This document shows positions 32,372-48,896 of a stretch of 54,326 nt of DNA, piece after piece. Position 1 is the first letter of the stretch; each line of letters opens with the position of its first letter. The notes below the pieces were generated by a model. That model was not told where the DNA came from and did no database searches. It saw nothing but the letters and a program-made list of their open reading frames with translations. Origin of the DNA: Terrimicrobiaceae bacterium (GTDB lineage Bacteria > Verrucomicrobiota > Verrucomicrobiia > Chthoniobacterales > JAATET01); the NCBI GenBank assembly GCA_028713285.1, contig JAQTOP010000012.1, forward strand, positions 1 to 54,326, given 5' to 3'. Position numbers and translations under genes: made by a program.

Positions 32372-32447
32372 GGCTGGGTAGCTCAGTTGGCAGAGCAGAG
32401 GACTGAAAATCCTCGTGTCGGGGGTTCGATTCCCTCCCCAGCCACCA
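32372..32447 (+). tRNA. tRNA-Phe (anticodon GAA)
   Basis: The 76-nt gene has a perfect 7-bp acceptor stem (GGCTGGG with CCCAGCC), a T-loop GTTCGAT, an anticodon stem GAGGA/TCCTC with loop CTGAAAA (anticodon GAA), and an encoded CCA end. Its 3' 49 nt, from inside the anticodon stem, are the left att repeat, so the present 3' half was supplied by the integrated element. Confidence 0.97.
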
Positions 32448-32449
32448 CT
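32399..32449 (+). repeat. attL core (51-bp direct repeat)
   Basis: Positions 32399-32449 are identical to 46349-46399; the first mismatches are at 32398 (G versus C) and 32450 (C versus T). The repeat covers the anticodon loop to the CCA end of tRNA-Phe plus two bases. Confidence 0.93.
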
Positions 32450-32457
32450 CTTTATCA

Positions 32458-32495
32458 CCCGCAGAGCCGCTTAAATAAAGCCTCTGCGGGTTTTT
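32458..32495 (+). terminator. tRNA-Phe terminator carried by the element
   Basis: CCCGCAGAG (32458-32466) and CTCTGCGGG (32482-32490) pair perfectly and are followed by TTTTT. The stem and the loop segment GCAGAGCCGCTTAAA are related to the terminator beyond attR. Confidence 0.85.
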
Positions 32496-32503
32496 CTTTG
32501 AAA

Positions 32504-32536
32504 TAGTGCGATTTCCTTTCGCACACTATCGCACTA
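32504..32536. promoter_or_regulatory. TAGTGCGAT inverted repeat with an extra half-site
   Basis: TAGTGCGAT (32504-32512) and ATCGCACTA (32528-32536) are perfect inverted copies; TCGCACACTA inside the spacer is a near third copy. The location, between attL and rep, suits an integrase, excisionase or Rep binding site. Confidence 0.45.
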
Positions 32537-32557
32537 GCTGGGATCGGTCTCAAATTG

Positions 32558-32574
32558 TCCGCCCGTTGTCCGCC
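32558..32574 (+). promoter_or_regulatory. Candidate integrase arm-type sites, left end
   Basis: TCCGCC occurs at 32558 and 32569, 11 bp apart (one helical turn) and in the same orientation. A pair with the same spacing and orientation lies beside attR at 46306 and 46317. Confidence 0.5.
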
Positions 32575-32665
32575 CACAGAGGCCCCCTTGAAATCCCCTT
32601 TCCATCGAAGGATATTCCTTCCATGCACGCCAAGCGCGATGGGAGGGAGGTGAACGGCTCCCCAT

Positions 32666-32701
32666 AAAAAAACTGCCCAGCGGGGAAAACCCACCGGGCA
32701 G
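32666..32701 (-). terminator. Minus-strand terminator in the rep leader (possible antisense RNA end)
   Basis: CTGCCC (32673-32678) and GGGCAG (32696-32701) pair, and on the minus strand the stem is followed by seven T. No minus-strand gene ends here; the nearest one upstream on that strand is 8 kb away. A short antisense RNA against the rep leader is the simplest reading. Confidence 0.5.
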
Positions 32702-32816
32702 CGGAAAATTGACCAACGCGAGTCAACGTCCTCGACAAACGGAATCTCGCCCAGTCCCGACCAGCTTTCAACTGGTTCTTTCCGTTGCTCAACGCTGCCC
32801 AGCTTCGAGCCGCGCC

Positions 32817-34166
32817 ATGCCAACGAACACACGGCGAGAAATCGAATTCACCATCGGCGGGATCGGCCCGAACATCGTCATGCCCAATCCGTGGGGATGG
32901 CCCCAGATTCAGCAGCTCCTCGGCGAGGTTTTCCTCTCGTCTGATAATAGGCACACAAGTGTCTCAAACATCGGGTGGCAGGAGATGGCCTTGCAGCTCT
33001 ACGGGTTCCTGCCGCAGGCAAAAACCGAACTGAGGCGTATCCAGGCCAATGGGAAACGATATTTCCGGGATGCCGCAGCAGGACGACCCGAAGCAAGGGA
33101 GATACTGCGACCGTATCGGCAACAGCTCCGCGCCCTCGTATGGGCCGCCCGGATGAAGCTTGGAACCATCCACTGCCGGCCGAACCAACAAGACTGGCAC
33201 CAACGGGCATACGGATTCTTCCTGGCCCTTCAAAACAACCTGAGCCACCTCCGCCGCGTCCATTTCCTGACCATCACCTTCCCCGACCCAATCAGCTACG
33301 ATCTCGTCCGAGATAGCCTGCGAGGAGTGACGCGCAATCTCTTGTTCCGTGCGGGAATGGAATCCGTGGATGTCATTGCATTCCACCCGAGAGAAGGCAG
33401 TCCCGGGCGATTGCATGTCCACATGCTGGTCTGGAGCAAGGAACCGAGAACACCCCAAGCAGAAACGGCCGCAATGCGGGGAGTTTTGGCGGGATTGAGA
33501 GCGGGCAGATACGGCGTTGGCCGGGTGGAATTGGAGAGACTTACCAGCAGGCAGAGCTTCATGCGAACAGCCGCCTACATGGCCTTGAATTACGACCGCA
33601 CCCTCAAACTCTCGAAAGGTGACCACAACCCGATTCCGCAAAGGGCAAGACTCCTCAGAGTCCCGCAGGAAGTCCACCCAGGGGTCCGTTGGACCAAGAC
33701 AGGAAAATTCTCGTTCGTGACCACGGCGAGAACCGCATGGCGGGCCGCAATTGGCCGCTACGCTGCCGCCGTCGGCCATTCCGCTGTGGGAAACTGGCAG
33801 TGGACATGGAGAGAGCGGCGGCGGATCCGCGAATATCTTGAGCCGGAACGATGGCGACCGCCATCAGTTACCGGTTTGGACGGATATACCTATCAAGTCA
33901 TCCCGTATGGCGAGGATGCCGTTGGCAACGAGACATACCTCCTGTCCAACGAAGAGCGCGGCGGTTTCGTTCTGACCGAATACGGACTGGAGGTCGTTGG
34001 GGAATTCGAGGTCCTGTGCGGGACTCTCCCCAAAAACGACAGGCTCGATCTTACAACCGGAGAACACGCTTGCTGGTTCGAGGTCTGGGGACTGCCTTTT
34101 ACATCATGGAGAACCCGCGGGAATTCTCAAAGCCGTCACCGATCACGGCCAAGACTGCGGGCATAG
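32817..34166 (+). CDS. HUH-type rolling-circle replication initiator-like protein
   Basis: This 449-residue protein shows the three Rep motifs in order: motif I FLTITF (residues 150-155), motif II HVH (H200, H202, in RLHVHMLVW) and a motif III-like segment with Y254 and Y259 (AAYMALNYDR). HUH proteins nick one strand and stay linked through tyrosine to start rolling-circle replication. The N- and C-terminal thirds show no motif I know. The start MPTNTRREIEF was taken as the first ATG of this coding stretch. It is the first gene after attL and may let the excised circle replicate. Confidence 0.65.
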   Translation: MPTNTRREIEFTIGGIGPNIVMPNPWGWPQIQQLLGEVFLSSDNRHTSVSNIGWQEMALQLYGFLPQAKTELRRIQANGKRYFRDAAAGRPEAREILRPYRQQLRALVWAARMKLGTIHCRPNQQDWHQRAYGFFLALQNNLSHLRRVHFLTITFPDPISYDLVRDSLRGVTRNLLFRAGMESVDVIAFHPREGSPGRLHVHMLVWSKEPRTPQAETAAMRGVLAGLRAGRYGVGRVELERLTSRQSFMRTAAYMALNYDRTLKLSKGDHNPIPQRARLLRVPQEVHPGVRWTKTGKFSFVTTARTAWRAAIGRYAAAVGHSAVGNWQWTWRERRRIREYLEPERWRPPSVTGLDGYTYQVIPYGEDAVGNETYLLSNEERGGFVLTEYGLEVVGEFEVLCGTLPKNDRLDLTTGEHACWFEVWGLPFTSWRTRGNSQSRHRSRPRLRA

Positions 34167-34241
34167 ACAGGCGGCGGGGGTGATCGCGCTTGGCTGGTCA
34201 ACGCTATTTTTTTCTGATACGAACCCAAGGCGCACTTGGCA

Positions 34242-36635
34242 ATGTCTTCCATCTCAACATTCACCCCCGGAGCGAAAAAGCACCTCACGGAAACCGACAT
34301 CCGGTCAAAATTCATTACGCCTGCATTGAGCGGAACCGGCGGGGCAGGGTGGAACCTGATGACTCAGATTCAGGAAGAGAAATATTTCACCAAGGGACGC
34401 GTCATCGTCCGCGGCAAAACCGTTCAACGGGGCGAAGCAAAAAAGGCGGACTACATTCTTTACTACAAGCCCAACCTCCCCATTGCCGTCATCGAGGCAA
34501 AGGACAACAATCATTCCGTCGGGGCCGGCATGCAGCAGGCGCTTGAATACGCAGAAATCCTCGACGTTCCTTTCGCCTACAGCACCAACGGTGATGCCTT
34601 CCTGGAGCATGACCGCACCGCCGTCGGCGGCACCGTGACGCGGGAAATTCCGCTCGATCAATTCCCCAGCCCGGAAGCGCTCTGGACCCGTTACTGCGCC
34701 GCAAAAAACCTCACACCACCCCAAGCCGCCGTCGCGACTCAGGACTATTACGACGACGGTTCCAGAAAGTCGCCGCGTTACTATCAACTCGTTGCCGTCA
34801 ACCGCGCTGTGGAAGCAATCGCCCGTGGCGAAAACCGCATCCTTCTCGTGATGGCGACCGGCACCGGCAAGACCTACACCGCCTTCCAAATCATCTGGCG
34901 ACTGTGGAAGGCCGGCACCAAAAAGCGCATCCTCTTCCTCGTGGACCGCAACATCCTCGCGGACCAGACCAAAACGAACGACTTCAAGCCCTTCGGTCAG
35001 GCGATGACGAAGATCACCAACCGAACGGTGGACAAGGCGTTTGAAATTTACCTCTGCCTCTATCAAGCCGTCACCGGCACCGCAGAGGACCAGAATATTT
35101 ACAAGCAATTCTCGCCCGATTTTTTCGACCTCATCGTCGTGGACGAGTGTCACCGCGGCAGCGCCGCAGACGATGCCGCGTGGCGGCAGGTGCTGGAGTA
35201 TTTCACCACGGCCACCCAGATCGGACTTACCGCCACCCCCAAGGAGACGAAGGAAGTTTCCAACAGCGAATACTTCGGCGAACCCATCTACACCTACTCG
35301 CTCCGGCAGGGCATCGCCGACGGCTTTCTCGCTCCCTACAAGGTGGTGCGCATCGGCCTCGACAAGGACCTCGACGGCTGGAGACCGGAAGACGGACAGA
35401 TCGACAAACACGGCCAGCTCATCGAGGACCGGGAATACAACGACAGCGACTACGACAAGAATCTCATTCTCGAAAAGCGCACCGAGACCGTCGCAGCCAA
35501 AGTCACCGAATTCCTCCGCGCCACCAACCGTTTCGCCAAAACCATCGTCTTCTGCGAAAACATCGACCACGCCGAGCGCATGCGTCAGGCGATGGTCAAC
35601 GCCAACCCCGACCTCGCCGCCGCAAATAGCAAATACGTCATGCGTATCACCGGCGACAACGAGGAGGGAAAGGCACAGCTCGACAACTTCATCGACCCCG
35701 AGGCGACCTACCCCGTCGTCGCCTGCACGTCCCGACTGATGAGCACGGGTGTCGATGCACAGACCTGCCATCTCATCGTCTTGGATAAACGGATCGGCTC
35801 CATGACCGAGTTCAAGCAGATCATCGGACGTGGCACCCGCATCAACGAGGACTACAACAAATTCTTCTTCACCATCATGGACTTCCGGCGGGCCACCGCC
35901 TTGTTTGCCGATCCGTCCTTCGATGGTGATCCAGTGCAGATTTACGAACCCGGCCCCGATGACCCGCCGATTCCCCCGGACGACAACGGGACAACTCCCA
36001 CCGTGGCCGAGGACCCGCCGGATTATGGCGATGGGAGCATCATCGACACCGGGACCGGAACCACACCCGCCACGAAATATTACGTTCACGACGTGCCCGT
36101 CAGCGTCGCGATGGAACGCGTTCAATATCTCGACGAGAACGGCAAACTCATCACGGAATCACTCACGGACTACTCCCGAAAGGCCGTCCTCAAAAACTAC
36201 GCTTCTCTCGATGCCTTCCTCGCATCATGGAAAGCCGCCGACCGCAAACAGGCTATCTTGGAGGAATTGGCCAGCCAGGGCGTTTTCCTGGATGAACTCG
36301 CCGAGCAAGTGGGGCAAGGTTTCGATCCCTTCGATCTCGTTTGCCATATTGCTTTCGACCGTCCGCCGCTCACTCGCCGTGAACGCGCCGATGGTGTGAG
36401 GAAGCGGGACATCTTTGGCAAATACGAGACGAAGGCCCGCACCGTCCTTGAGGCTTTGCTCGACAAATACGCCGACGCCGGCATCGCCAGCGTGGAATCC
36501 CTCGAAATCCTCAAGGTGGACCCACTCCGCGCCTTCGGCACCCCCGTTGAAATCATCAATCTTTTCGGAGGAAAGCCCGGCTACCTCGCCGCCCTCCACG
36601 AACTCGAAACTGCCCTCTACCAAGAAGCTGCCTGA
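34242..36635 (+). CDS. hsdR: Type I restriction endonuclease subunit R
   Basis: This 797-residue subunit has an N-terminal nuclease domain (D70 and E85-A-K87 in IAVIEAKDNN), then a helicase motor with Walker A MATGTGKT (about 204-211) and the DECH box (301-304). The C-terminal helicase domain has TSRLMSTGVDAQTC and QIIGRGTRINED. It translocates DNA and cuts unmodified targets with HsdM and HsdS. It lies 3 bp before hsdM. The ATG follows an in-frame TTG two codons earlier. Confidence 0.95.
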   Translation: MSSISTFTPGAKKHLTETDIRSKFITPALSGTGGAGWNLMTQIQEEKYFTKGRVIVRGKTVQRGEAKKADYILYYKPNLPIAVIEAKDNNHSVGAGMQQALEYAEILDVPFAYSTNGDAFLEHDRTAVGGTVTREIPLDQFPSPEALWTRYCAAKNLTPPQAAVATQDYYDDGSRKSPRYYQLVAVNRAVEAIARGENRILLVMATGTGKTYTAFQIIWRLWKAGTKKRILFLVDRNILADQTKTNDFKPFGQAMTKITNRTVDKAFEIYLCLYQAVTGTAEDQNIYKQFSPDFFDLIVVDECHRGSAADDAAWRQVLEYFTTATQIGLTATPKETKEVSNSEYFGEPIYTYSLRQGIADGFLAPYKVVRIGLDKDLDGWRPEDGQIDKHGQLIEDREYNDSDYDKNLILEKRTETVAAKVTEFLRATNRFAKTIVFCENIDHAERMRQAMVNANPDLAAANSKYVMRITGDNEEGKAQLDNFIDPEATYPVVACTSRLMSTGVDAQTCHLIVLDKRIGSMTEFKQIIGRGTRINEDYNKFFFTIMDFRRATALFADPSFDGDPVQIYEPGPDDPPIPPDDNGTTPTVAEDPPDYGDGSIIDTGTGTTPATKYYVHDVPVSVAMERVQYLDENGKLITESLTDYSRKAVLKNYASLDAFLASWKAADRKQAILEELASQGVFLDELAEQVGQGFDPFDLVCHIAFDRPPLTRRERADGVRKRDIFGKYETKARTVLEALLDKYADAGIASVESLEILKVDPLRAFGTPVEIINLFGGKPGYLAALHELETALYQEAA

Positions 36636-36638
36636 CCC

Positions 36639-38111
36639 ATGCCCAACGTCTCCAATCTCGTCAAAACCATTCAGGACATCATGCGCAAGGACGCCGGGAC
36701 CTACGGCGACGCCCAGCGCCTGGAGCAGCTGGGCTGGATGCTCTTCCTGAAAATCTTCGACGACCGCGAGACACAGCTTGAGCTTTTTCAGGACGACTAC
36801 CGCTCACCCCTCCCGGAGAATCTTCGTTGGCGATCATGGGCCGCCAATGCCGAGGGCATCACCGGCGAACCCCTTCTCAAGTTCGTTGATAACACCCTGC
36901 TTCCCACCCTTGAGACTCTCCCCGGCACGGACCGGATAAATGGCCTCGTTCGCATGGCCTTCGCGGATGCCAACAATTACATGAAGAACGGCACGTTGAT
37001 GCGCCAGGTCATCAACAAGATCAACGGCATCGACTTCAACGCCTCCGACGACCGCCATCTTTTCGGGGACATCTACGAAAAGCTCCTCAAAGACCTCCAG
37101 TCCGCCGGCAACGCGGGCGAATTCTACACCCCCCGCGCCGTTACCCAGTTCATTGTCGATCAGGTCAATCCTCGCCTCGGCGAAACCCTCCTCGACCCCG
37201 CCTGTGGCACCGGCGGCTTCCTCACAAGCGCCATCGAGCATCTGCGCAAGCAGGCGAAGACCGAGGCCGACGAGCGGATGATTCAGGAGTGTTTCGCTGG
37301 TATCGAAAAAAAGCACCTGCCGCACATCCTCTGCATGACGAACCTCATGCTCCATGGGATCGATGTGCCGGCCAATGTCCGCCACGACAACACGCTTGCG
37401 CGCCCCCTCCGCGATTGGAGCCCGAAAGAGCGTGTCGATGTCATCGTCACCAATCCCCCCTTCGGCGGCATGGAGGAAGACGGTATCGAGTCGAATTACC
37501 CTGGCGAGTTCCGCACTCGCGAAACCGCCGACCTCTTCCTCGTGCTGCTCATGAAGATCCTCAAGCCCGGTGGCCGGGCCGGACTCGTGTTACCGGACGG
37601 CACCCTTTTCGGTGAAGGCGTCAAAACGCGTATCAAGGAAGCCCTCCTGAACGAGTGCAATCTTCACACCATCGTCCGCCTACCCAACGGCGTCTTCAAT
37701 CCCTATACCGGCATCCGCACCAATCTCCTCTTCTTCACCAAAGGCGCGCCCACCACCGCCGTCTGGTATTACGAGCACCCGTATCCCGCCGGCGCCAAGA
37801 GCTACAACAAGGGCAAACCCATCCGCATCGAGGAATTCGACGACGAGAAAGCTTGGTGGGGCAGCGAGGCCGATGGCTTCGCCGCCCGCGTGGAAAACGA
37901 ACGCGCCTGGCGCGTGTCCATCGAGCAAATCAAGGCCGGCAATTTCAACCTCGACCTCAAGAACCCACACAGCTCTGACACCGGCCCCGGCGACGTTGAC
38001 CACCTCCTGCCCGAATACGAGAAACTCCTCGGCCGGATCGCCGACACCCGCGCCGCGCTGAAACAGGAACTACACCGCGCCCTCACCGCCGCCGCCGGGA
38101 TTGCTGAATGA
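36639..38111 (+). CDS. hsdM: Type I DNA methyltransferase subunit M
   Basis: This 490-residue adenine methyltransferase has an N-terminal HsdM helical domain, the SAM motif DPACGTGGF (186-194) and the catalytic NPPFGG (272-277). With HsdS it methylates the recognition site and protects the host. It overlaps hsdS by ATGA, so the two are co-translated. Length and motifs are complete. Confidence 0.96.
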   Translation: MPNVSNLVKTIQDIMRKDAGTYGDAQRLEQLGWMLFLKIFDDRETQLELFQDDYRSPLPENLRWRSWAANAEGITGEPLLKFVDNTLLPTLETLPGTDRINGLVRMAFADANNYMKNGTLMRQVINKINGIDFNASDDRHLFGDIYEKLLKDLQSAGNAGEFYTPRAVTQFIVDQVNPRLGETLLDPACGTGGFLTSAIEHLRKQAKTEADERMIQECFAGIEKKHLPHILCMTNLMLHGIDVPANVRHDNTLARPLRDWSPKERVDVIVTNPPFGGMEEDGIESNYPGEFRTRETADLFLVLLMKILKPGGRAGLVLPDGTLFGEGVKTRIKEALLNECNLHTIVRLPNGVFNPYTGIRTNLLFFTKGAPTTAVWYYEHPYPAGAKSYNKGKPIRIEEFDDEKAWWGSEADGFAARVENERAWRVSIEQIKAGNFNLDLKNPHSSDTGPGDVDHLLPEYEKLLGRIADTRAALKQELHRALTAAAGIAE

Positions 38112-39673
38112 CGCTGGAGACCTTTTTTCAAAAGTTCGACCTCTTTGCCGACGCGCCTGACGCATTGGCGAAGATGCGGGGACTGGTGCTGGAGTTGGCC
38201 GTGCGGGGCAGCTTGGTTCCGCACTCGGCAGTTGAACCCGCCGTGCCGTATGCCTCGGTGGAGGCCGCCACGCCCATCAACGCCTCCGACGTTCCGGAGA
38301 ACTGGCGAGTGGTTCTTTTGTCCGATGCGATCAAGAACCGCAGCGGAAACAGCAAGCTCATCAAAGGGAAGCTCCATGACGAGCCAGCGGCAGGTCGTTT
38401 CCAAGGATTCAGCGCCTCTGGCGCAGACGTTTGGTGCGACGACTTCGAGCACGAAGGCGAGGCGATCATCATTTCTGCGGTCGGTGCTCGTTGCGGAAAA
38501 GCGTTCAAGGCGTCTGGCAAATGGAGCGCGATCGCCAACACCAATATCACTCGCCCTGTGCCATCCCTGTTCGACTTCGATTTCGCCTACTTGGTTCTGA
38601 ACAACGAGCACTTCTGGGTTCGCGGAGGTTCGGCTCAGCCGTTCGTGAAGTTCCCTCCTTCACTTGACCGCTATTTCGCCTTCCCACCCCTCGCCGAGCA
38701 AAAGCGGATCGTGGCGAAGGTGGATGAGTTGATGGCGTTGTGTGACGATCTGGAGTCGGAGCAGCGAGAGAGGGAGACGCAACACGAGGGACTGGCCCGC
38801 GCCTCGCTGTCCCGCTTCAGCGACGCGCCCACCCTGGCCAATCTCGAGTTCCTTTTCCACAAATCCTACGACATCTCCCCCGGCGACCTCCGCAAATTCA
38901 TCCTCACCCTCGCCGTCCAAGGCAAACTCGTCCCCCAAGACCCCAACGACGAGGGCGTGCGCAGCGGTGCGGAGTTCAGAAAAGCCGTTGGTGAACTCGC
39001 GGATTTCCTCGGATTGCGCTCACCAAAAGAGGCGGTTGATGAAGTAGAACCGCCATTCGACGCACCCGCCCATTGGAGTTGGATGCCACTGGCGGACATC
39101 GGGGCTGCTCAAACTGGAACAACACCGAGCAAGGCTGACCCCTCCGCGTTCAACGGAGAAATCCCATTTATCAAGCCAGCGGACATTCTGCCAAACTCCG
39201 TCGACTACTCAAACGAGAGCCTGACACGAATCGGAGCCGAAAACGGAAGTCGCCTCGCACCTGCCGGGAGTCTTTTGATGGTCTGCATTGGAACAATCGG
39301 GAAGTGCAACCTAATCGACCGTGAGTGCGCCTTTAATCAACAGATCAATTCACTCTCTCCCGTTCAGTGGATTGAACCGCGGTATCTCCTGACCGCTGCG
39401 CGAGCTCGGTATTTCCACGACGCGGCGTGGGCGAAATCCAGCAGCACAACCATAGCGATTCTCAACAAAGGGAAATGGCTTTCTATTCCGATTCCAGTCC
39501 CACCCCTCGCCGAACAACGCCGGATCGTGGCGAAAGTGGACGAACTGATGGCCTTGGTGGACGCATTGGAAACCCAGCTCGCCACCGCCCGCACAGCCGC
39601 CACCGACTTGCTTACCGCCGCAGTGGCCGAATTGACCAATGGAAAGGAACACGATGCCCTCGTTGAAGTTTGA
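38108..39673 (+). CDS. hsdS: Type I specificity subunit S
   Basis: This 521-residue subunit has two target-recognition domains, each followed by a near-identical conserved helix: PPLAEQKRIVAKVDELMAL near residue 195 and PPLAEQRRIVAKVDELMAL near residue 465. The two variable halves set the bipartite target. The C terminus overlaps the SIR2 gene by 20 bp, tying that gene to this operon. Confidence 0.95.
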   Translation: MTLETFFQKFDLFADAPDALAKMRGLVLELAVRGSLVPHSAVEPAVPYASVEAATPINASDVPENWRVVLLSDAIKNRSGNSKLIKGKLHDEPAAGRFQGFSASGADVWCDDFEHEGEAIIISAVGARCGKAFKASGKWSAIANTNITRPVPSLFDFDFAYLVLNNEHFWVRGGSAQPFVKFPPSLDRYFAFPPLAEQKRIVAKVDELMALCDDLESEQRERETQHEGLARASLSRFSDAPTLANLEFLFHKSYDISPGDLRKFILTLAVQGKLVPQDPNDEGVRSGAEFRKAVGELADFLGLRSPKEAVDEVEPPFDAPAHWSWMPLADIGAAQTGTTPSKADPSAFNGEIPFIKPADILPNSVDYSNESLTRIGAENGSRLAPAGSLLMVCIGTIGKCNLIDRECAFNQQINSLSPVQWIEPRYLLTAARARYFHDAAWAKSSSTTIAILNKGKWLSIPIPVPPLAEQRRIVAKVDELMALVDALETQLATARTAATDLLTAAVAELTNGKEHDALVEV

Positions 39674-40760
39674 TCCCGAGGCGACGGTCGAGGAGATCGC
39701 GGGCATTGGACGCAATGCCCGGTTCGATTCCGTCATCGACGACAAGAACGATGATTCCATCCAAGTCATCTGCAAGCGCGGTGGCGATGAGATCCCCTTG
39801 GCCAATTCCGCCCGTGCATTTTATTTCGGAGACCGGGTTCTTTACGATCAGGAGGCCCGCCGTTTCGATCTCGGGGAAAAACAGCAAATCCTCAACACCT
39901 CTCAATTCCAGAGGAACGAGCGACGATTCGACGAACTCAGGCGGGCCTGCCAACGAGGCTTCGTGATTCCATTCGTTGGCGCAGGCATGTCCAAAGCTGC
40001 GGGCTGCCCGGAGTGGAAAGAGTATCTTCTGAACCTGTGCCCGGAAGCAGAATTCGATGCGGATACCATGCGGCAACGCCTCGAAGACCACGGGGACTAC
40101 GAAGGCGTGATGCACGACCTCGTTACCAAATTGGGGCAAGCGCGCTTCAATTTGGACTTCGAGCGGGATTTCACGCCACCGGGCGATTTGACGGGAGCCG
40201 TCCTGCGACTCCCTGATCTTTTCGACAGTTGTGCGATCACCACCAACTTCGACCGCGTTCTGGAAATGGCGTATGAGAAATGCGGCAAGACGTTTCTCGA
40301 AAAGACGACCGGCCGAGGCCCGACGGGAACCATCAACTCCTTCTATCGCGCCATCCCCGCAGGCGACCGGCACCTGCTCAAACTCCACGGAAATCTGAAC
40401 AACGCCGATGAGCGCGTGCTCAATCGTTCGGAATACAACGCCGCCTATGGCAGCGACGGAAACATCCACTTTGAATCCCCAGTGCCCAAGCTCCTACGTC
40501 GTCTCTACACGAGCTTCAGCTTTCTCTTTCTTGGCTGTAGCCTTTCCTACGACCGCACCATCCAGACCTTCGCCAAAATCGCCCAGGACGTAGGTGCCGA
40601 CTCCCTGCCGCACCACTACGCCATTTTGGCGTGCCCCTCCGACCCAGCCCGGAAAGCGAGCCTCGAACAACGCCTGGCCGACGCCCACATTTCCGCCATC
40701 TGGTTCCCAGAGGGCGAGTTCGGCCTGATCGAGCAGATTCTCGAAATGCTTAGCATCTAA
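39654..40760 (+). CDS. SIR2-domain protein linked to type I R-M
   Basis: This 368-residue protein has a new N-terminal region of about 100 residues, then a SIR2 core: GAGMSK (109-114), TTNFD (196-200), KLHGNL (243-248) and FLGCSLSYD (292-300). SIR2 domains in defence systems bind and often degrade NAD+ to stop phage growth. A ribosome-binding site GGAAAGGA lies before ATG 39654 inside the hsdS end. An ATG at 39639 would add five residues. A role as a second, abortive line of defence is inference from position. Confidence 0.88.
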   Translation: MPSLKFDPEATVEEIAGIGRNARFDSVIDDKNDDSIQVICKRGGDEIPLANSARAFYFGDRVLYDQEARRFDLGEKQQILNTSQFQRNERRFDELRRACQRGFVIPFVGAGMSKAAGCPEWKEYLLNLCPEAEFDADTMRQRLEDHGDYEGVMHDLVTKLGQARFNLDFERDFTPPGDLTGAVLRLPDLFDSCAITTNFDRVLEMAYEKCGKTFLEKTTGRGPTGTINSFYRAIPAGDRHLLKLHGNLNNADERVLNRSEYNAAYGSDGNIHFESPVPKLLRRLYTSFSFLFLGCSLSYDRTIQTFAKIAQDVGADSLPHHYAILACPSDPARKASLEQRLADAHISAIWFPEGEFGLIEQILEMLSI

Positions 40761-40785
40761 CTCGAGCAGCCTCCGCCGACTACCA

Positions 40786-41520
40786 TCATGCAGCCGGGGC
40801 TGGGAACTCATCCCAGGTGCGTCCATCGAGCAGGCGGCCGGCCTTCACTTTGTTGTTCGTGCCCCACTGCTTGAAGTGGAAGGGGATGCCTTCCTCAACG
40901 CAGAGGTCCCGCAGAAACGCCGCCCAGCTGTGTTTCATCGGGCGATACCGTGCTCCTGATTCACCGCCGCAGATGACCCAGTGGATTCCATCCAGCGGGA
41001 CAGCCACATAGCCAATCAAAGGCTCGCAGGAAATAAACCGGACCGCGGCAGGAATCTCGCGCAGGATCGGCACCCGGAGCTTCGCCATGTCCTGATTCTC
41101 GACCGTGGTCCCGAGCCAGACATTCCTCCAGCCGTCACCCCAATCCGCCGGCAGCATGCCCGAGATATTCTCGGGACGCTTGGTCAACAATTGCCAGTCA
41201 AGGGCGGGGCACTCACGGATGAGATTCCACAGGTCATCCCTCCACGTCGCCGCAACCTCAGCGTCAAACACGTCAGCCATGCTGGCAACAAAAACTCGGG
41301 GACGGTTACCGGCTTTAATCGCCTTCGCGTTCCATTTTAGGGGTTTCGCCCAGTATTTCTCGCTGGTGCGATGACGGGGGATACCACTTCCCCAGAGCTT
41401 TTTTCCGGTGCGGAGTGAAGTCGTCTCTGCATAGCAGTTCTGACATCCCGCCGAGACTTTCGTGCAACCCATCCACGGGTTGAACGTGTTATCGGTCCAA
41501 CTAATTTCGGTGTTTTCCAT
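40786..41520 (-). CDS. DUF5131 (phage Gp37/Gp68-like) radical-SAM-type protein
   Basis: This 244-residue protein opens with MENTEISWTDNTFNPWMGC and has a cysteine cluster CTKVSAGCQNCYAE that could hold a 4Fe-4S cluster, the DUF5131 signature. Family members are often encoded with a three-Cys-motif partner (TcmP), which I do not see here. Its biochemical role is unknown. It is the last gene of the minus-strand cluster and converges with the SIR2 gene. Confidence 0.8.
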   Translation of the reverse strand: MENTEISWTDNTFNPWMGCTKVSAGCQNCYAETTSLRTGKKLWGSGIPRHRTSEKYWAKPLKWNAKAIKAGNRPRVFVASMADVFDAEVAATWRDDLWNLIRECPALDWQLLTKRPENISGMLPADWGDGWRNVWLGTTVENQDMAKLRVPILREIPAAVRFISCEPLIGYVAVPLDGIHWVICGGESGARYRPMKHSWAAFLRDLCVEEGIPFHFKQWGTNNKVKAGRLLDGRTWDEFPAPAA

Positions 41521-41710
41521 TTTCTTATCACTGCCCCGTTTTGGTTCGGGCCGAGGCCGCCCGTTTTGTTTGTTACTCACCCCTCGCGGCAGAGACTTTT
41601 CCGCTCTCGTTCCTCGATGCTCAAAGACTCTGCTCGCGCCCCCGTCGCGGCCGTCTGCAAATTCACTCCGGCATGGCATGCCTTCCTGAATCCCCAGACC
41701 GCCGCCAAAT

Positions 41711-42511
41711 TCATCCCAGCCACCGCGCCAGCGCGGCAGCCAGCGGAAGCAGGGCGATAGCCGCCAAGGCGACTATCTTCCAAAACTCGGCCCGGTTGTG
41801 CTGCCGCTCTGCATCCACCTTGGAATCGCCCTCGCGCTCGATGGCCTGGGCAACCGCTGTTCTAGTCCCGACCAACTCACGTTCGGTCCGGCTGAGATTG
41901 GCCTGAACGCTGGATAGCTCCTGACTTACCGCTTCGCGGAAGGCAGCCTTGGCCCGTTCCAATTCCGGTGCGTCGTAGAGACGCGACCGGTCGAGACATT
42001 GGAGCGCGAAAAAGCACTCCACGTCCCGGATTTCGCTCTGCGCGTGCCGGGCCGGAATTTCACCAACCAATCCCCAGAGAATGGCCTTCGCGATCATTCG
42101 CGGGTCGATGCCATCCTTGGGATAGACGAGCACGGTGCGGAACCGCTTGCCGTCGTAGGGATAGAGAAAAGCGAATACGCGACTTCCCTTCCCGGTGGCA
42201 CCGATCCGGCCTTCCCGGATCTTGGACCGCTCCAGGGATTCGTTACCGATGAAGACCCAGTTGGGGACATCAGTGGCGGGCGTGAGCCCCATTTTATCCC
42301 GGATGTATTGTGTAACCGCATCCGAGGCATCCTCGTTCGGCGGGAGAGGCGGAATGCGCATCTCATCAGGGACTTTATCGAGCTGGGGTTTCAGCTTTTT
42401 CAGCAATGCCTCGAAGCTCCGTTCCTCAGGCTCCATCTTGGGAGGTTCCTGCTTGGGAACGTTTTTCTTCGGCTTGTTGTCGTCGGGTTCGGGTGCGTCA
42501 ATAGCGATCAT
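41711..42511 (-). CDS. Hypothetical tail-anchored protein
   Basis: This 266-residue protein has a Pro/Lys/Glu-rich N terminus, a central domain of mixed type (GKGSRVFAFLYPYDGKRFRTVLVYPKDG), a helical, probably coiled-coil segment (residues 175-235) and one C-terminal membrane helix (FWKIVALAAIALLPLAAALA). I do not recognise the family. Its start overlaps the end of the relaxase-like gene by 4 bp, so it is co-translated with it and may anchor a complex at the membrane. Confidence 0.7.
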   Translation of the reverse strand: MIAIDAPEPDDNKPKKNVPKQEPPKMEPEERSFEALLKKLKPQLDKVPDEMRIPPLPPNEDASDAVTQYIRDKMGLTPATDVPNWVFIGNESLERSKIREGRIGATGKGSRVFAFLYPYDGKRFRTVLVYPKDGIDPRMIAKAILWGLVGEIPARHAQSEIRDVECFFALQCLDRSRLYDAPELERAKAAFREAVSQELSSVQANLSRTERELVGTRTAVAQAIEREGDSKVDAERQHNRAEFWKIVALAAIALLPLAAALARWLG

Positions 42512-43611
42512 AGGATTTTGTTGATCTCGTGGGTTGGGGTTGCGGGTTGGGATGGTGGCGCCGGCGCGATGGCTTCCAGCGCCACGGAAATCACCTGGAC
42601 GGCCTGGACTGCGGTGCGAACAAGGCGAAGCGTGGCCTGCACCTGTGGCGGGAAAAGCGGGGAGACCAGTCGGATCACGTCCCAGGCGATCCGCTGTGAT
42701 GAAGGAGTGTTCAACGCCGACTCACGCCGGGCCTTTGTCTTCCACTCGCGGTAGTGTTCCTTGGCTGCCTCGTATCGGAGGACGGCATCGTCCCCCATCG
42801 CGGCAACCATCTCGTCGAACTTGCCATCCAGGACGGCGTGAAGCCGGATGTCCAATGGCTGGACACCCTCACCGTGACGCTCGGCAAAACGCTCTAGATT
42901 CTGCGCAAGCCGGCCATCGCCTGGATCGCCCGCGCCAACTTCCACGATTCGAGCCTGGGCGACCGACCACGCGCCGACGGTGCGAAGGAACTTATCCCCG
43001 ACAAGCTGGTGGTCCCGGTTCGTTCGAGTCTGGATGACTCCAACGTGAATCTTGTTGGAATCGAGGTGGAGGTAGTTGCCTGGAATCTCCCGGCCCGTTG
43101 CAGCTTGGAACGCCTCCACGACAGCGACTCGTTGGGGATTGAGAAAGGCAAGCAATGTGGCTTTCCGATCCTCCGCGGACACACCTGCTTGTTCCCAACG
43201 ACGAAGCTCCCCATTGATGAACAGCATTTGCCACGGGGCATAATTCGTGACGACCTCACCAAGCGCCGGGCCCTTGTGCTGGCGCTGCACGGTGCAGAGC
43301 TTATCGCCCCGGCGCATCGTGCCGAGATACCAGCGGCGTTCCCAGTTTTCGGCCGCAAGGTGTTTCTCGAACCCAAGACCGGGAACCTGTTTTTCTCCAC
43401 CTCCAGAACCCGTGAAATAAATCCCGTTCGGCAACGTGAGATCACCCACCTGTAAGCGGAATTCTGCCGCGGGATTTCCCTCGGGGACCGATTCCGGAAC
43501 CCACTGGAAACCACGCTGCTGCCGGCGCTGATCAACATGGCGGGCATGCGTTCGGGAATCCGCGTTGGAATGCCGGATGCCTTCGGCATTGAGTGGACGG
43601 CGGAGGCTCAT
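42508..43611 (-). CDS. Relaxase-like protein, divergent
   Basis: This 367-residue protein contains HLDSNKIHVGVIQTR, where H182, D184 and H189 follow the H-x-D-x4-H pattern of MobV/Mob_Pre relaxases, although the usual final His is replaced by Gly (HVG). The remainder shows no motif I know; the C terminus has a hydrophobic region. AGGAG 4 bp before the ATG is a good ribosome-binding site. A nested palindrome directly upstream looks like an oriT. I call it relaxase-like with caution; a non-nicking DNA-binding role is possible. Confidence 0.45.
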   Translation of the reverse strand: MSLRRPLNAEGIRHSNADSRTHARHVDQRRQQRGFQWVPESVPEGNPAAEFRLQVGDLTLPNGIYFTGSGGGEKQVPGLGFEKHLAAENWERRWYLGTMRRGDKLCTVQRQHKGPALGEVVTNYAPWQMLFINGELRRWEQAGVSAEDRKATLLAFLNPQRVAVVEAFQAATGREIPGNYLHLDSNKIHVGVIQTRTNRDHQLVGDKFLRTVGAWSVAQARIVEVGAGDPGDGRLAQNLERFAERHGEGVQPLDIRLHAVLDGKFDEMVAAMGDDAVLRYEAAKEHYREWKTKARRESALNTPSSQRIAWDVIRLVSPLFPPQVQATLRLVRTAVQAVQVISVALEAIAPAPPSQPATPTHEINKIL

Positions 43612-43634
43612 TTCGCTCCTCCTCCCGAGTTATG

Positions 43635-43692
43635 TGCAGGGGGAGCGAGATATTTTGGAGCACAGACCGCTGTGCACCATTTTCCCCCTGCA
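43635..43692. other. Nested perfect inverted repeats, candidate oriT or operator
   Basis: Outer arms TGCAGGGGGA (43635-43644) and TCCCCCTGCA (43683-43692) are exact inverted copies; inside them GCACAG-ACCG-CTGTGC (43660-43675) forms a second hairpin. The structure sits 24 bp upstream of the relaxase-like gene, the common place of oriT in mobilizable elements. Confidence 0.55.
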
Positions 43693-43708
43693 ATCAGTTT
43701 CAGAGCTT

Positions 43709-43978
43709 TCATTCGTCCCCTCCTTCGGAAGGAAGCGGCGGTGGCTCGTCACCATCCAGCTTGCGGCGATACGCGCTCTTTAGGCTCTGCCAGTCAATGA
43801 TCGTCTCCGAACCCCGGCCACCCTCGCGAACGATGATGACCCAACGTTCCTTTGGAGTCTTGGCACGACGGGACCAATATAGCCAACGCTGAACCAGCTT
43901 GGGCATGGAAGTCAGGCGGAAGGCCTGCTTCTTCGTGACGGAGAGAGGTTCTAGTTCCGGTTCACGGTGGGTGGCCAC
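43709..43978 (-). CDS. Small excisionase-like DNA-binding protein
   Basis: This 89-residue protein starts at a GTG and has a MerR/Xis-like helix pattern (LSVTKKQAFRLTSMPKLVQRWLYW) followed by a beta-hairpin and IDWQSLKSAYRRKL. Proteins of this form bend DNA as excisionases or control transfer genes. It heads the minus-strand cluster leading to the relaxase-like gene. Confidence 0.55.
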   Translation of the reverse strand: MATHREPELEPLSVTKKQAFRLTSMPKLVQRWLYWSRRAKTPKERWVIIVREGGRGSETIIDWQSLKSAYRRKLDGDEPPPLPSEGGDE

Positions 43979-44276
43979 GGCGGGTGTGTGACCGCCACGG
44001 CACGACTGAGGGACGCGATCCGCTCAGACCCGTGAAACGAGAGAGACCGCTCGATCTCTCCAGAGGATTCCAACCTCGCGAGTGTAGCTACCGGAATACA
44101 CCGGCCCATGAGCCACCTCGATCTGACACTGACGACCGGCAGGCTCCACCTGGAGCCTCTTCCCGGGGATTTGTGCATCCCACGCGTTGTTACCGACCGT
44201 TGCATTTGCATTGAGTATTTCATTGACAATTTGGCACAGACTTTTTCCGTGTCAAATTTGGTTGCACGGAAACCGG
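43979..44276. other. Intergenic region with promoter-like repeats
   Basis: No convincing gene. Around 44222-44260 two related blocks, TGACAATTTGG and TGTCAAATTTGG, and a TTGACA box on each strand suggest promoters or an operator for the minus-strand cluster. Confidence 0.35.
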
Positions 44277-44672
44277 TTATGCCGACACCAGCACCGCAGG
44301 GTTTTTCCGAGCAATGGAAAGGAGCTTCAACGCGGCCCCCGAAGGCCGGCGAGTGCCATATTCCCAACTCATCACGCTGGACCGCCCGACGCCAAGGTAA
44401 GCGGCAAACACGGACTGGCTGACGTTGAGCTTCTCGCGGATGGCGGCAATATCCTTCGGTTGAATTGCGGACTGAGCGGAGACATGAAAGCTCCGCAGCG
44501 TGACCTTCTTTTTTCCGGTGAGCGCGTCGGCCAGCCCCTGCGCAGCCTCGACCAAGGCCGGGCCGCTGAACTCCATGTCATCAAGCGCGGCGAGAATTTC
44601 GGATTTGGTCCGCAGCTTTGCGGAGGGCGTTTTCTTCTTCGCCGGTGAGGGCTTTTTTCTGGCTCTTTCCAT
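44277..44672 (-). CDS. XRE-family antitoxin (HigA/NadS-like)
   Basis: This protein has a C-terminal helix-turn-helix (IAAIREKLNVSQSVFAAYLGVGRSSVMSWEYG) typical of type II antitoxins that bind the toxin and repress the operon. From 44672 it is 131 residues with a Lys-rich N terminus that overlaps the toxin gene by 92 bp; a start at 44576, 4 bp after the toxin stop, is also possible. It follows the toxin gene in the toxin-first order. Confidence 0.85.
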   Translation of the reverse strand: MERARKKPSPAKKKTPSAKLRTKSEILAALDDMEFSGPALVEAAQGLADALTGKKKVTLRSFHVSAQSAIQPKDIAAIREKLNVSQSVFAAYLGVGRSSVMSWEYGTRRPSGAALKLLSIARKNPAVLVSA

Positions 44673-44913
44673 AGATCATTACGAGGTAGATGGTTTCCTG
44701 TTCTGGCACGTAAAGGTAGATCACACGCGCTCCCCCGCTCTTGCCAATGCCTGCGCTCGGGAAGCCCATGCGGGCCTTGCGAAAGCCGCCAGTCCCGCGG
44801 AGTAGATCGCCTTGCTCCGGCTGAGCCTGCATGTCGGACTGGAACGCAGCGTAGTCACTATCTGGAAAGCGTTGGATGGCTTTGGTGAAATTGGGTTCTT
44901 CAACGAATTCCAT
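44581..44913 (-). CDS. RelE/HigB-type toxin
   Basis: This 110-residue protein has the RelE/HigB-like core GDLLRGTGGFRKARMGFPSAGIGKSGGARVIYLY and the ending region KKALTGEEENALR, matching toxins that cut ribosome-bound mRNA. ATG 44913 begins MEFVEEPNFTK; an upstream start would add nine residues. It precedes the antitoxin gene and follows the integrase. The pair probably stabilises the element. Confidence 0.85.
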   Translation of the reverse strand: MEFVEEPNFTKAIQRFPDSDYAAFQSDMQAQPEQGDLLRGTGGFRKARMGFPSAGIGKSGGARVIYLYVPEQETIYLVMIYGKSQKKALTGEEENALRKAADQIRNSRRA

Positions 44914-44927
44914 ACTACTGGGAAATA

Positions 44928-44942
44928 TATTGCGGTGCAATA
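44928..44942. promoter_or_regulatory. Palindromic operator of the toxin-antitoxin pair
   Basis: TATTGC (44928-44933) and GCAATA (44937-44942) are exact inverted copies 3 bp apart, 14 bp upstream of the toxin start, where an antitoxin would bind. Confidence 0.5.
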
Positions 44943-44946
44943 GGAT

Positions 44947-46278
44947 TCATGCCGCCGCGTCAAGTTGGATAATGTTCCCGGCGACCGCCGCAGGGGTGAG
45001 CGCCCAATACTCCTCGATGTCCGCCTCATCTTTGACGACCTCGCGGTAGTGGCGATACAACATGCGGGCGTTTTGGTGGCCCATTTGCTCGGCGGTAAGC
45101 GCGGCGTTCTGGTGTTTGGCAAGGTGGTAGGAACCGAAGGAGTGTCGAAGAACATCCTCGGGCCAGCCATCCTGCCAGCCCATCGCCCGGCAGAGCGCCC
45201 AACGCTTACGGCGAAAATTTACTGGCAGCAGCCGAGCCGATTCCTTGCGGCAGGCAAGCAACCATTCCCCCAAGTTGTCGGAAATGGTGATAATGCGGCG
45301 ATTACCGTCCTTGGTGATCTCGGCGGGAAGATCAATGTGCTTCCGCTTGAAATCCACCATGCCCCAGGTCATGAGGGCGGACTCCTCGGGACGCACCCCG
45401 GCGAAACAGCCGACCACCATCATCGGAACCATGTCCATCGGAGGAACCGTCATGGACACCGCTCCGAATTTTCCCCGCCAAAGTTCCTTCTCGTTCTCCT
45501 CCGCCTCGACCTTGAAACCGGTCGTGACGAGGTGAAGCAGCTTGCGAGCTTCTTCGATGAACAGGATGCGCACGGGTGCCTTCTTCGTGGTCGCCTCCTC
45601 CACGGTCATACCGAGGCACGGATTCGCCGCTAGGTGGTGTTGCTTGACCGCCCAGGAGAACAGCACGGAGAGATTGCGCAGCATGTTTCGCTCGCCAGCG
45701 GGCTGGAGGGAACAGTCGTTGAGAAATTTCCGAACGTCCGGCTGGCCGACGCCGTTGATGGCTTTTTTCTTTGGAGCGGGCAGCCATTTTTCAAAACGAT
45801 TCCAACGCTTCTTGAGGTCTGCAATGTAGGCCGGGCGTTTGCTCTTCGCCTTCTCCTTCAAGGCGCGCTCAATGGCTTCCCCCACCGAGACGGTTCCCGC
45901 AGGTGGGTTGGAGTGACGGACGGCGAACTCCACTGCTTTGGTGAGAGTCAGCCCGGCCTTCTCGCAGGCGCGAAAGGCCGCATGGGCCTCCGCGAGCTGC
46001 GCGGCGGAGAGCGTGAAAGCAGCCGCCCCAGCCGTCGCCTTCAAATCCACTATCGAACCAGGAGCGGCTTTATGCTTGGTGGTGCCGTCTCCAAAAATCC
46101 ATTCCCGGGCGGAATTTACATCGGGAAAGTCCTTCTTGAGCACGCTGCCACCGGTGAACCTCTCCCCAAGCCGAACACGAATAAATGTCCGTCCCCGACC
46201 CGACTCGGATTTTGACACCCCAACACCAGGAGGCAGATCGGCGATGAGAGCTTTCTTCTTGCGTTTTCCGAGGGGCAT
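44947..46278 (-). CDS. int: Tyrosine recombinase (integrase)
   Basis: This 443-residue integrase has an arm-binding and core-binding N terminus and a C-terminal catalytic domain: R296 in AGVRPEES, DVLRHSFGS (R378), MGH (H401) and Y411 in YRHYREVV. The first His of the HxxR box is Asp, a tolerated change. It ends the element at its attR side, 71 bp from the core repeat, and would catalyse integration into tRNA-Phe and excision with an excisionase. Confidence 0.93.
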   Translation of the reverse strand: MPLGKRKKKALIADLPPGVGVSKSESGRGRTFIRVRLGERFTGGSVLKKDFPDVNSAREWIFGDGTTKHKAAPGSIVDLKATAGAAAFTLSAAQLAEAHAAFRACEKAGLTLTKAVEFAVRHSNPPAGTVSVGEAIERALKEKAKSKRPAYIADLKKRWNRFEKWLPAPKKKAINGVGQPDVRKFLNDCSLQPAGERNMLRNLSVLFSWAVKQHHLAANPCLGMTVEEATTKKAPVRILFIEEARKLLHLVTTGFKVEAEENEKELWRGKFGAVSMTVPPMDMVPMMVVGCFAGVRPEESALMTWGMVDFKRKHIDLPAEITKDGNRRIITISDNLGEWLLACRKESARLLPVNFRRKRWALCRAMGWQDGWPEDVLRHSFGSYHLAKHQNAALTAEQMGHQNARMLYRHYREVVKDEADIEEYWALTPAAVAGNIIQLDAAA

Positions 46279-46305
46279 AAGCGATTCTGGTTATATAAAC
46301 AAGTA

Positions 46306-46322
46306 TCCGCCAACTGTCCGCC
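46306..46322 (+). promoter_or_regulatory. Candidate integrase arm-type sites, right end
   Basis: TCCGCC at 46306 and 46317, 11 bp apart and in the same orientation as the left pair, lies between the int start and attR. TATATAA at about 46291-46298 could be the int -10 region, so binding here would also repress int. Confidence 0.5.
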
Positions 46323-46348
46323 GAAATCAAGTTATAGTGTAAAACAGC

Positions 46349-46399
46349 AGGACTGAAAATCCTCGTGTCGGGGGTTCGATTCCCTCCCCAGCCACCACT
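46349..46399 (+). repeat. attR core (51-bp direct repeat)
   Basis: This is an exact copy of 32399-32449, ending in the displaced 3' part of tRNA-Phe including CCA. No tRNA 5' half precedes it. Confidence 0.93.
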
Positions 46400-46535: not shown

Positions 46536-47501
46536 TTACAGCCTCATTCGTATTCCAGCACGCTGTTGCTGTCGCTGCTGTTCGATTTCGAGGACTCGGA
46601 TGACAATTCGTAGGGTTCGCAGGAGCCCGACAAGGAGTTGACCTCCCCGGAAGTGATGGCCTTGAGCAATTCGTCCGATTGAAGCTCCTCGGGCAAGGAG
46701 ACCAACCAACTCTCCAGCCGTGTTCGAATATGCAGGCCGTGTCCGGGAACGATTTCGAGCAGGTCGATTTCCGTGATGGGCAATGCCCGATTTTCCAGAC
46801 ACAGCCATCCGGTGGGTTTGGCGTTTGGGTTTGGATTGATGCAACTGGCGTGTTCCTGCCAGATCGGGCTTCTCGACGACGGAGAGGGACTTCGGAATTT
46901 GTTTGCGGGACTTGCGATCATGGTTCTTGAGTTTGTTGAGTTGAGAGTTGATTTCCGCCAGACGGCGGGAGTCGGAGGAAATGAGTTTGTTGATTTCGTC
47001 CTTGCGGAGTCGGCAGCCGTTCCGGGTCATGGCGGCGGCTTTTGCGCCAAGGTGCTTGGTGGCGGGTCGGTCAATGCCCTGGGCTTGCAGCGAACGACAG
47101 TTGACTCCTTCCGATATTCCCGCTTTCCGCAGAGCACGATTACAGCGGGTTTCCCACATCTCGCGGATTCGCTCAACTTCGACGGGGCCGAGTTTCCGGT
47201 CGTCGAGATTGCGAATTTTCGCCTTGGAAAAATTGCCGTTGGCGTCCACGGCGCGGGTCGTCATGAAAATGTGGCCGTGGACATTGCGATGGTCGCCTTT
47301 CGTGTTCGGATGGTGCAGACTCACGCAAAGCCCCGTCCCGTAGGTGTCGCGCAATTGAAGGCCGAACCCGCGCACAAGGTCCCATTGCGCTTTCGTGCTC
47401 AACTCGTGCGGCACGGCCACGTCCATCGCCCGGCCCACGCTGACAGCCAATCGGCCAATCCTTCGGGAATTCCTCTGCAGGGCGAAGTTTCCGTCTCATG
47501 C
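46536..47501 (-). pseudogene. Broken MobA/MobL-type relaxase
   Basis: The coding stretch contains VAVPHELSTKAQWDLV and the histidine-rich nicking motif HHPNTKGDHRNVHGHIFMTT, but no start or N-terminal relaxase segment; the frame closes upstream at a TGA near 47502. Downstream of about 46900 the reading shifts: the natural C terminus, with LPEELQSDELLKAITSGEV and an acidic, serine-rich tail, lies in another frame ending at 46544. So it is truncated at the 5' end and frameshifted. It is a remnant of an older mobile element next to attR. Confidence 0.75.
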
Positions 47502-47741
47502 GGAAACAGATAGCGCGTTGAAATGGAGGGCTTACCCCGAATTCGGGGCAAAATTTCGGCCGTTCCTGCGATGGGAAATGTATCATCCGACCTACGCTAG
47601 AGCTGGGGTTCAGGCAGCCAGTTCCCAACCCGGAACAGTTTGAGATTACTCAGTCACAAAATCGTGCGGGCGCTCTCACGTCCGCATCGTCGCTCGGATT
47701 TCAAAAAAGATTGCTCGCGAGACGAACAATCTTTGAAAAAT

Positions 47742-48896
47742 TCAGATGGCCTCTTCAGCGTTCAGAATATCCATATACCGCTCGTAGGCGAACACATGGG
47801 CCTTTCCCCGGCTGGGCAATTCCCGCAGAATGCCAAGCTTCACAAGCTGCCTGGCCGACGCGTGTAAAGTCGGAATGGAAATCGGCAGGCTTTTGTGCGC
47901 CTCCCGGACAGAACTGACCGGATGCGCCTGAAAAAAGCGATGCACTTCGAGAGCGGAAGGGGCCGCGCGACCGATATCGCTGATTCGCTCCCGGTCCTCC
48001 TTGAAAAGCTCGAGAAGGCGAGTGGCCGTTTGAAAAGCCTGATTTCCCGTGACCGCCACTCCTTCAAAGAAAAATGCCAGCCACGCCTCCCAATCTCCCT
48101 TTTCCCGGATTTGATTGAGCAGGTCGTAGTAGAGGTCGCGATGGCGTTTGAAAAACAGGCTCAGGTAAAGGAGCGGTTGACGGAGCGTTCCATCCGCGCA
48201 GAGCAGCAAGGTGATGAGCAGTCGCCCGACGCGGCCATTTCCGTCCAGAAATGGATGGATGGTTTCAAATTGAGCGTGGGCCATGCCCGCTTTCAGCAAG
48301 GTGGTGATTGCCTCGTCGTGCAGAAATTTTTCCAGCCGGTCGAGACAAGGCATCACTTCTTCTGCCGGAGGCGGGACGAACCGGGCGTTGCCGGGACGCG
48401 TGCCGCCAATCCAATTCTGGCTCGTCCGAAATTCGCCCGGCTGCTTCCGGCTGCCGCGGCCTTTCGAAAGCAGGATTTCATGGAGCTCACGGATCAACCG
48501 CAGCGAGATCGGAAATCCCTCGCGGAGTCGATTCATTCCATGCTCCAGCGCCGCCACGTAGTTGGAAACTTCCTGCACGTCACTGATGGGAACTCCCGGC
48601 GCTTCATTGTTCTCGAACAAGAGGAGATCGGAAAGAGAGGATTGCGTGCCTTCGATTTGCGAAGAGAGGACGGCTTCCTTGCGCACATAGCTGTAGAGAA
48701 ACACACTGGTCTCGGGCAAGATGGTGGCGATGCCATCCAGACGCCCCAGGGCGGAACTGGCTGCCGCAAACTGCGCTTCCAGTTCGGAAGACCACGCCAG
48801 CGGCGGCACTGGCGGAAGCGGTTTCGGCACGAACGCGCGAGCCCTCTCGCCCACCGTGGAAATGGTGAGATATTGTCCTTGAATGCCCCGTTTCAT
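47742..48896 (-). CDS. Fic-family AMPylation-type protein with self-inhibition motif
   Basis: This 384-residue protein has the Fic motif HPFLDGNGRVGR (214-225) and, N-terminal to it, the inhibitory motif S78-S-Q-I-E82-G83, which marks class II Fic proteins that block their own ATP site. The C terminus (ALEVHRFFQAHPVSSVREA, then LHASARQLVKLGIL) is a winged helix-turn-helix, so DNA binding is likely. Upstream inverted repeats could be its operator. It probably AMPylates a target and represses its own gene. Confidence 0.92.
   Translation of the reverse strand: MKRGIQGQYLTISTVGERARAFVPKPLPPVPPLAWSSELEAQFAAASSALGRLDGIATILPETSVFLYSYVRKEAVLSSQIEGTQSSLSDLLLFENNEAPGVPISDVQEVSNYVAALEHGMNRLREGFPISLRLIRELHEILLSKGRGSRKQPGEFRTSQNWIGGTRPGNARFVPPPAEEVMPCLDRLEKFLHDEAITTLLKAGMAHAQFETIHPFLDGNGRVGRLLITLLLCADGTLRQPLLYLSLFFKRHRDLYYDLLNQIREKGDWEAWLAFFFEGVAVTGNQAFQTATRLLELFKEDRERISDIGRAAPSALEVHRFFQAHPVSSVREAHKSLPISIPTLHASARQLVKLGILRELPSRGKAHVFAYERYMDILNAEEAI

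Follow-up and report, generated by a model that had tools for sequence, protein, structure and literature searches.

A link between Sir2 and type I restriction-modification (R-M) systems was reported in 2012, in a study that named it as one of the associated toxins, considered that it might be a nuclease or might ADP-ribosylate its target, and proposed, by analogy with PrrC, that such toxins bring about suicide or dormancy after the failure of immunity (Makarova et al. 2012, PMC3506569). Encoded within the hsd genes of the type Ic system PrrI, PrrC is a nuclease that acts on tRNA-Lys and bears an ABC ATPase domain; the PrrI R-M complex is reported to hold it (PMC3506569), and it is proposed to act as a second line when restriction is blocked. 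Whether the toxins of restriction operons are wired to the restriction enzyme or hitch-hike with it has been an open hypothesis since that time, with PrrC as the worked example. In a functional E. coli island, the site between hsdS and hsdR carries DarTG2, and this site has been described as a possible hotspot for the recombination of defence systems (PMC12255303). In the literature searched, outside of which most subscription papers lie, we found no experimental test of a compact SIR2 protein embedded in a type I R-M system.

We analysed a stretch of 54,326 nucleotides from a Terrimicrobiaceae bacterium (hereafter, the window), in which a SIR2 gene is the last gene of a type I R-M operon. The operon is carried by a 13.95-kb island (32399-46399) inserted in a tRNA-Phe gene. 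The island is delimited as follows:

32372..32447, plus strand: tRNA-Phe(gaa), the integration site of the island (ARAGORN)
32399..32449, no strand: attL, an exact 51-bp direct repeat made of the 3' part of tRNA-Phe
44947..46278, minus strand: tyrosine integrase (PF00589)
46349..46399, no strand: attR, the second copy of the 51-bp repeat

In another genome of the same genus (G889), a single copy of the repeat joins the left and right flanks, which is the empty site. That the operon is island cargo fits its patchy distribution across phyla.

The genes and parts of genes that concern us here are:

34236..36635, plus strand: hsdR, type I restriction subunit of the EcoAI/FtnUII family (NF046051, 1184 bits; cut-off 550)
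36639..38111, plus strand: hsdM, type I N6-adenine methyltransferase (PF02384, 241 bits; motifs NPPF and DPACGTGGF)
38108..39673, plus strand: hsdS, specificity subunit (PDLC03195, 593 bits)
39654..39673, plus strand: 20-bp overlap of the hsdS 3' end and the SIR2 5' end
39654..40760, plus strand: SIR2 effector gene, 368 aa (PF13289, SIR2_2, 82 bits)
39654..39878, plus strand: N-terminal extension of SIR2, residues 1-75, of no known family and poorly predicted
39972..40757, plus strand: predicted SIR2 catalytic core, with GAGMS, TTNFD (Asn198), LHG (His245) and GCSL, numbered from 39654

The order hsdR-hsdM-hsdS-SIR2 is a single run of genes, all on the plus strand. Pfam, NCBIfam and PADLOC confirmed the HsdR, HsdM, HsdS and SIR2_2 assignments, and inspection of the motifs showed that the nuclease (PD-(D/E)xK) and helicase motifs of HsdR and the methyltransferase motifs of HsdM are intact. 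With an HsdR of this family bearing its motifs, and with hsdM and hsdS as further genes of the operon, the locus belongs with the EcoAI/FtnUII type I systems. The genes are tightly packed, hsdM and hsdS overlapping by 4 bp. A sequence-only reading of this DNA had placed the start of SIR2 inside hsdS, and this was borne out, at a conserved position. The longest SIR2 open reading frame (39639-40760) begins at an ATG that is possible and not conserved; no ATG is found at the equivalent position in the Stenotrophomonas (L002), Armatimonadota (L003) and G345 loci, and this start was rejected. The second ATG, at 39654 (MPSLKF...), is common to the relatives and is preceded, within hsdS, by GGAAAGGA; the same overlap layout is present in L002, L003 and L014. 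The start is therefore 39654, which makes the overlap 20 bp rather than 35 bp and the protein 368 residues long. The same reading described the two genes as fused by overlap. The genes do overlap, but their frames are separate, and a fused HsdS-SIR2 protein was rejected. Its view that SIR2 is expressed with HsdRMS is supported by the tight, overlapping and conserved gene order, which suggests that the four proteins are produced together.

The SIR2 protein is of the ThsA/KomC/DSR2 type, with intact catalytic Asn and His residues. In the alignment, the four core motifs are kept in the relatives, and His245 aligns with His146 of KomC (H146). KomC, ThsA and DSR2 are also the nearest solved sequences. 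In the AlphaFold model (overall pLDDT 69), the core matches the same three proteins with Z scores of about 19-22 over 250-275 residues, reaching 22 with ThsA and KomC in the structure comparison. From what is known of this family we infer that the protein is an NADase; with the fold match and the catalytic Asn/His pair, it looks like an active enzyme. Its sequence evolves under purifying selection, with a dN/dS of about 0.08 in both the extension and the core (window against Stenotrophomonas: core, dN 0.103 and dS 1.28; extension, dN 0.125 and dS 1.49, which indicates that the extension is constrained).

The described SIR2 defence systems ThsA, KomC, DSR2 and SIR2-HerA share with the window protein the SIR2 fold and the catalytic Asn/His, and differ from it in what accompanies them. 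ThsA of Thoeris has a C-terminal SLOG domain that binds cyclic ADPR, whereas the window protein has no SLOG and ends with the SIR2 core. DSR1 and DSR2 are proteins of about 1000 aa, of which the C-terminal sensor region of DSR2 makes up about 700; the window protein, at 368 aa, scores 15 bits against NF041818, for a cut-off of 1400. In SIR2-HerA (Nezha) the HerA ATPase gene is adjacent, and in Kongming (KomABC) komA and komB lie beside komC, whereas the window gene is flanked by hsdS and by a DUF5131 gene, the latter being the next gene and on the other strand. No sensor domain could be recognised with Pfam within the 368 residues.

The first 100 residues had been said to belong to no known family. 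An unmatched N-terminal part does exist, but it is about 75 residues long, the structural matches to SIR2 proteins beginning near residues 71-85. This part (residues 1-75) has no family in Pfam, NCBIfam or PADLOC, only insignificant sequence matches in the PDB, and no viral or plasmid relatives. AlphaFold predicts the extension with a pLDDT below 60, both alone and in context. When the extensions of the two type I lineages described below were compared with hhalign, the probability was 1%, and their homology was not established.

Relatives of SIR2 were picked by sequence alone and their surroundings were read only afterwards. This gave nine independent loci outside the window: L002, L003, L004, G345, G719, L025, and those of Photobacterium, Vibrio and Ketogulonicigenium, the last counted together with L026, whose SIR2 is 98% identical; L005 and L006, which are cut by contig ends, were left out. 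All nine loci with full-length relatives and readable upstream DNA have the gene at hsdS of a type I operon, directly 3' of it except on the Photobacterium plasmid, where one small gene intervenes. The hosts include Stenotrophomonas, Armatimonadota, Verrucomicrobia, Vibrio, Photobacterium, Ketogulonicigenium and others. The gene lying between on the Photobacterium plasmid (L011:6989-7789) encodes 266 aa with no Pfam match.

The Stenotrophomonas and Armatimonadota loci have the same hsdR-hsdM-hsdS-SIR2 order with overlapping ends, and are 81-83% identical to the window in SIR2, 81% in HsdR and 84-87% in HsdM. Identity is thus similar in SIR2 and in HsdR/HsdM, which indicates that the set moved between phyla as a unit. 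In L004 the end of hsdS is followed by SIR2, and G719 has the order hsdR-M-S-SIR2-patatin. In another type I family, the order is hsdM-hsdS-SIR2-hsdR (plasmids of Photobacterium, Vibrio and Ketogulonicigenium, and two IMG/VR contigs), so that in the two lineages, R-M-S-SIR2 and M-S-SIR2-R, the position of SIR2 is the same. In comparison, only 4 of 29 general SIR2_2 loci of the window's phylum have hsdS within 1.5 kb (Fisher p = 4e-6), a control that rests on few Hsd queries and on short flanks and is limited to one phylum. In the search of about 1,150 genomes and of the plasmid, phage and viral collections, no SIR2 of this type turned up apart from hsdS. Searched with the window SIR2 itself, the phage and viral collections gave no relatives, and a profile search matched the two IMG/VR contigs. 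The arrangement is more than chance and recurs in other phyla: the lack of conserved linkage that would have refuted the sequence-only reading is not observed. None of the inspected core-only matches (G200, G808, Mesorhizobium, Hymenobacter) belongs to a type I operon; two of them (L015 from G200, and L038, a Hymenobacter plasmid) end a module of DUF262, PAPS-reductase-like and large-protein genes that looks like a separate defence operon.

The locus therefore belongs to a kind of system known since 2012. As in Makarova et al. (2012), a type I R-M operon contains a gene of the Sir2 superfamily, and the idea of a toxin that acts after immunity has failed is common to both. To the general association the locus adds one compact subfamily, a conserved extension, a position at hsdS that is kept in two type I lineages, and an island. 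With PrrC it shares a conserved linkage to the hsd genes; it differs in its likely target, which is predicted to be NAD+ rather than tRNA-Lys. Like DarTG2, it immediately follows hsdS within a mobile type I operon. DarTG2 carries its own antitoxin; no RptR-like repressor gene was noted in the window.

Our preferred reading, to which we give a probability of roughly 0.45, is that of an R-M operon with a coupled SIR2 NADase that serves as a second-line effector and depends on the Hsd complex. HsdRMS would cut incoming unmodified DNA, and SIR2, the last and translationally coupled gene, would supply a compact NADase for abortive infection. The protein would most likely be held inactive by the Hsd complex or signalled through it, for instance by DNA-engaged, blocked or disassembled HsdMS, and would deplete NAD+ when restriction fails to clear the phage, a trigger that we regard as possible. 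This type of control is suggested by the obligate linkage, by the precedent of PrrC and by the want of a sensor: a SIR2 protein with nothing of its own beyond some 75 residues is most likely controlled via its partners. A more precise version, in which HsdMS silences SIR2 through the N-terminal extension and releases it upon encounter with an anti-restriction protein or persistent unmodified DNA, like a PrrC-type guard that would deplete NAD+ instead of attacking tRNA, appears rather unlikely to us.

Nearly as likely as control by Hsd is that SIR2 acts independently, as a stand-alone anti-phage NADase lodged in the slot behind hsdS. It would sense the phage itself, through the N-terminal extension or by oligomerisation, with no need of HsdRMS, the operon supplying expression and mobility. 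Indeed, the position 3' of hsdS is a general cargo slot, so that position alone cannot prove functional coupling. Five genomes of the phylum with 83-85% identical HsdM (G179, G275, G066, G218, G012) lack this SIR2 and have other genes or none after hsdS, showing that the R-M system does not need SIR2. PIN and AAA_15/GmrSD genes are among the cargo of the phylum relatives; on plasmids, where HsdM is about 60-65% identical, hsdS is followed by DUF262, by an AAA ATPase with a nuclease-domain gene, by MqsA-type or SymE genes, or by nothing. The four control loci found at hsdS carry, directly behind it, one DSR2 (L068) and three SIR2-HerA pairs (L069-L071), that is, complete self-sensing systems; the hotspot mentioned above points the same way. 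What speaks against independent cargo is that DSR2 and SIR2-HerA are also known from places where hsdS is absent, whereas this SIR2 type is not, and that the large sensor regions present in DSR2, ThsA and Avs5 are missing from it. What distinguishes it is that it was found at hsdS only and that no sensor can be recognised in it. For the question of wiring versus hitch-hiking, the protein is a clean test case, being small, free of known sensor domains and invariably at hsdS in both of the type I families; the many close R-M operons without SIR2 are natural controls.

The sirtuin fold, and the co-transcription with R-M genes suggested by the overlap, would also suit a regulator of the restriction enzyme, acting on it as a protein deacetylase or ADP-ribosyltransferase with no depletion of NAD+. 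We consider this improbable, since the sequence contains none of the CxxC zinc-binding pairs of canonical sirtuin deacetylases and the closest structures are those of defence NADases. Most improbable of all is that SIR2 is a functionless passenger left by the shuffling of islands: the G345 copy is decayed, having lost residues ~37-287, but the low dN/dS across phyla, the intact motifs and the conserved overlap argue against it.

In G345 the decay extends beyond SIR2. The hsdM gene is a truncated remnant, followed by hsdS and by the shortened SIR2 (L014:4519-4877), in which the catalytic part is gone; SIR2 and the R-M genes have decayed together. In related operons, further genes of interest are found beside SIR2 and the R-M genes: an Abi_2 (AbiD) gene (L025:7095-8051) and a CBASS-type patatin gene (L023:8287-9321), the two adjoining SIR2, which again would suit independent cargo, and an open reading frame with a weak TIR-like match (L026:9993-11258). 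Effectors thus accumulate at R-M loci of this sort. The DSR2 and SIR2-HerA (Nezha) loci L068-L071 show that SIR2 systems already described can likewise reside in type I operons of the phylum.

Other genes in and beside the island deserve mention. The DUF5131 gene (40786-41679, minus strand; Gp37/Gp68-like), convergent with SIR2, matches the PADLOC candidates PDC-M41B/PDC-M30B; it was rejected as a part of the R-M-SIR2 unit, since those other host genomes that were tested do not have it. A toxin-antitoxin pair, RelE with an MqsA-like HTH protein, is encoded at 44277-44940. Just inside attL, a 485-aa open reading frame (32709-34163, plus strand) has very weak similarity to REP_ORF2-G2P and MobP3 (replication/relaxase-like) and may be the replication gene of the island. 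Just outside attR, a MobA/MobL relaxase gene and a Fic gene (46536-48896, minus strand) are possibly the remains of another element.
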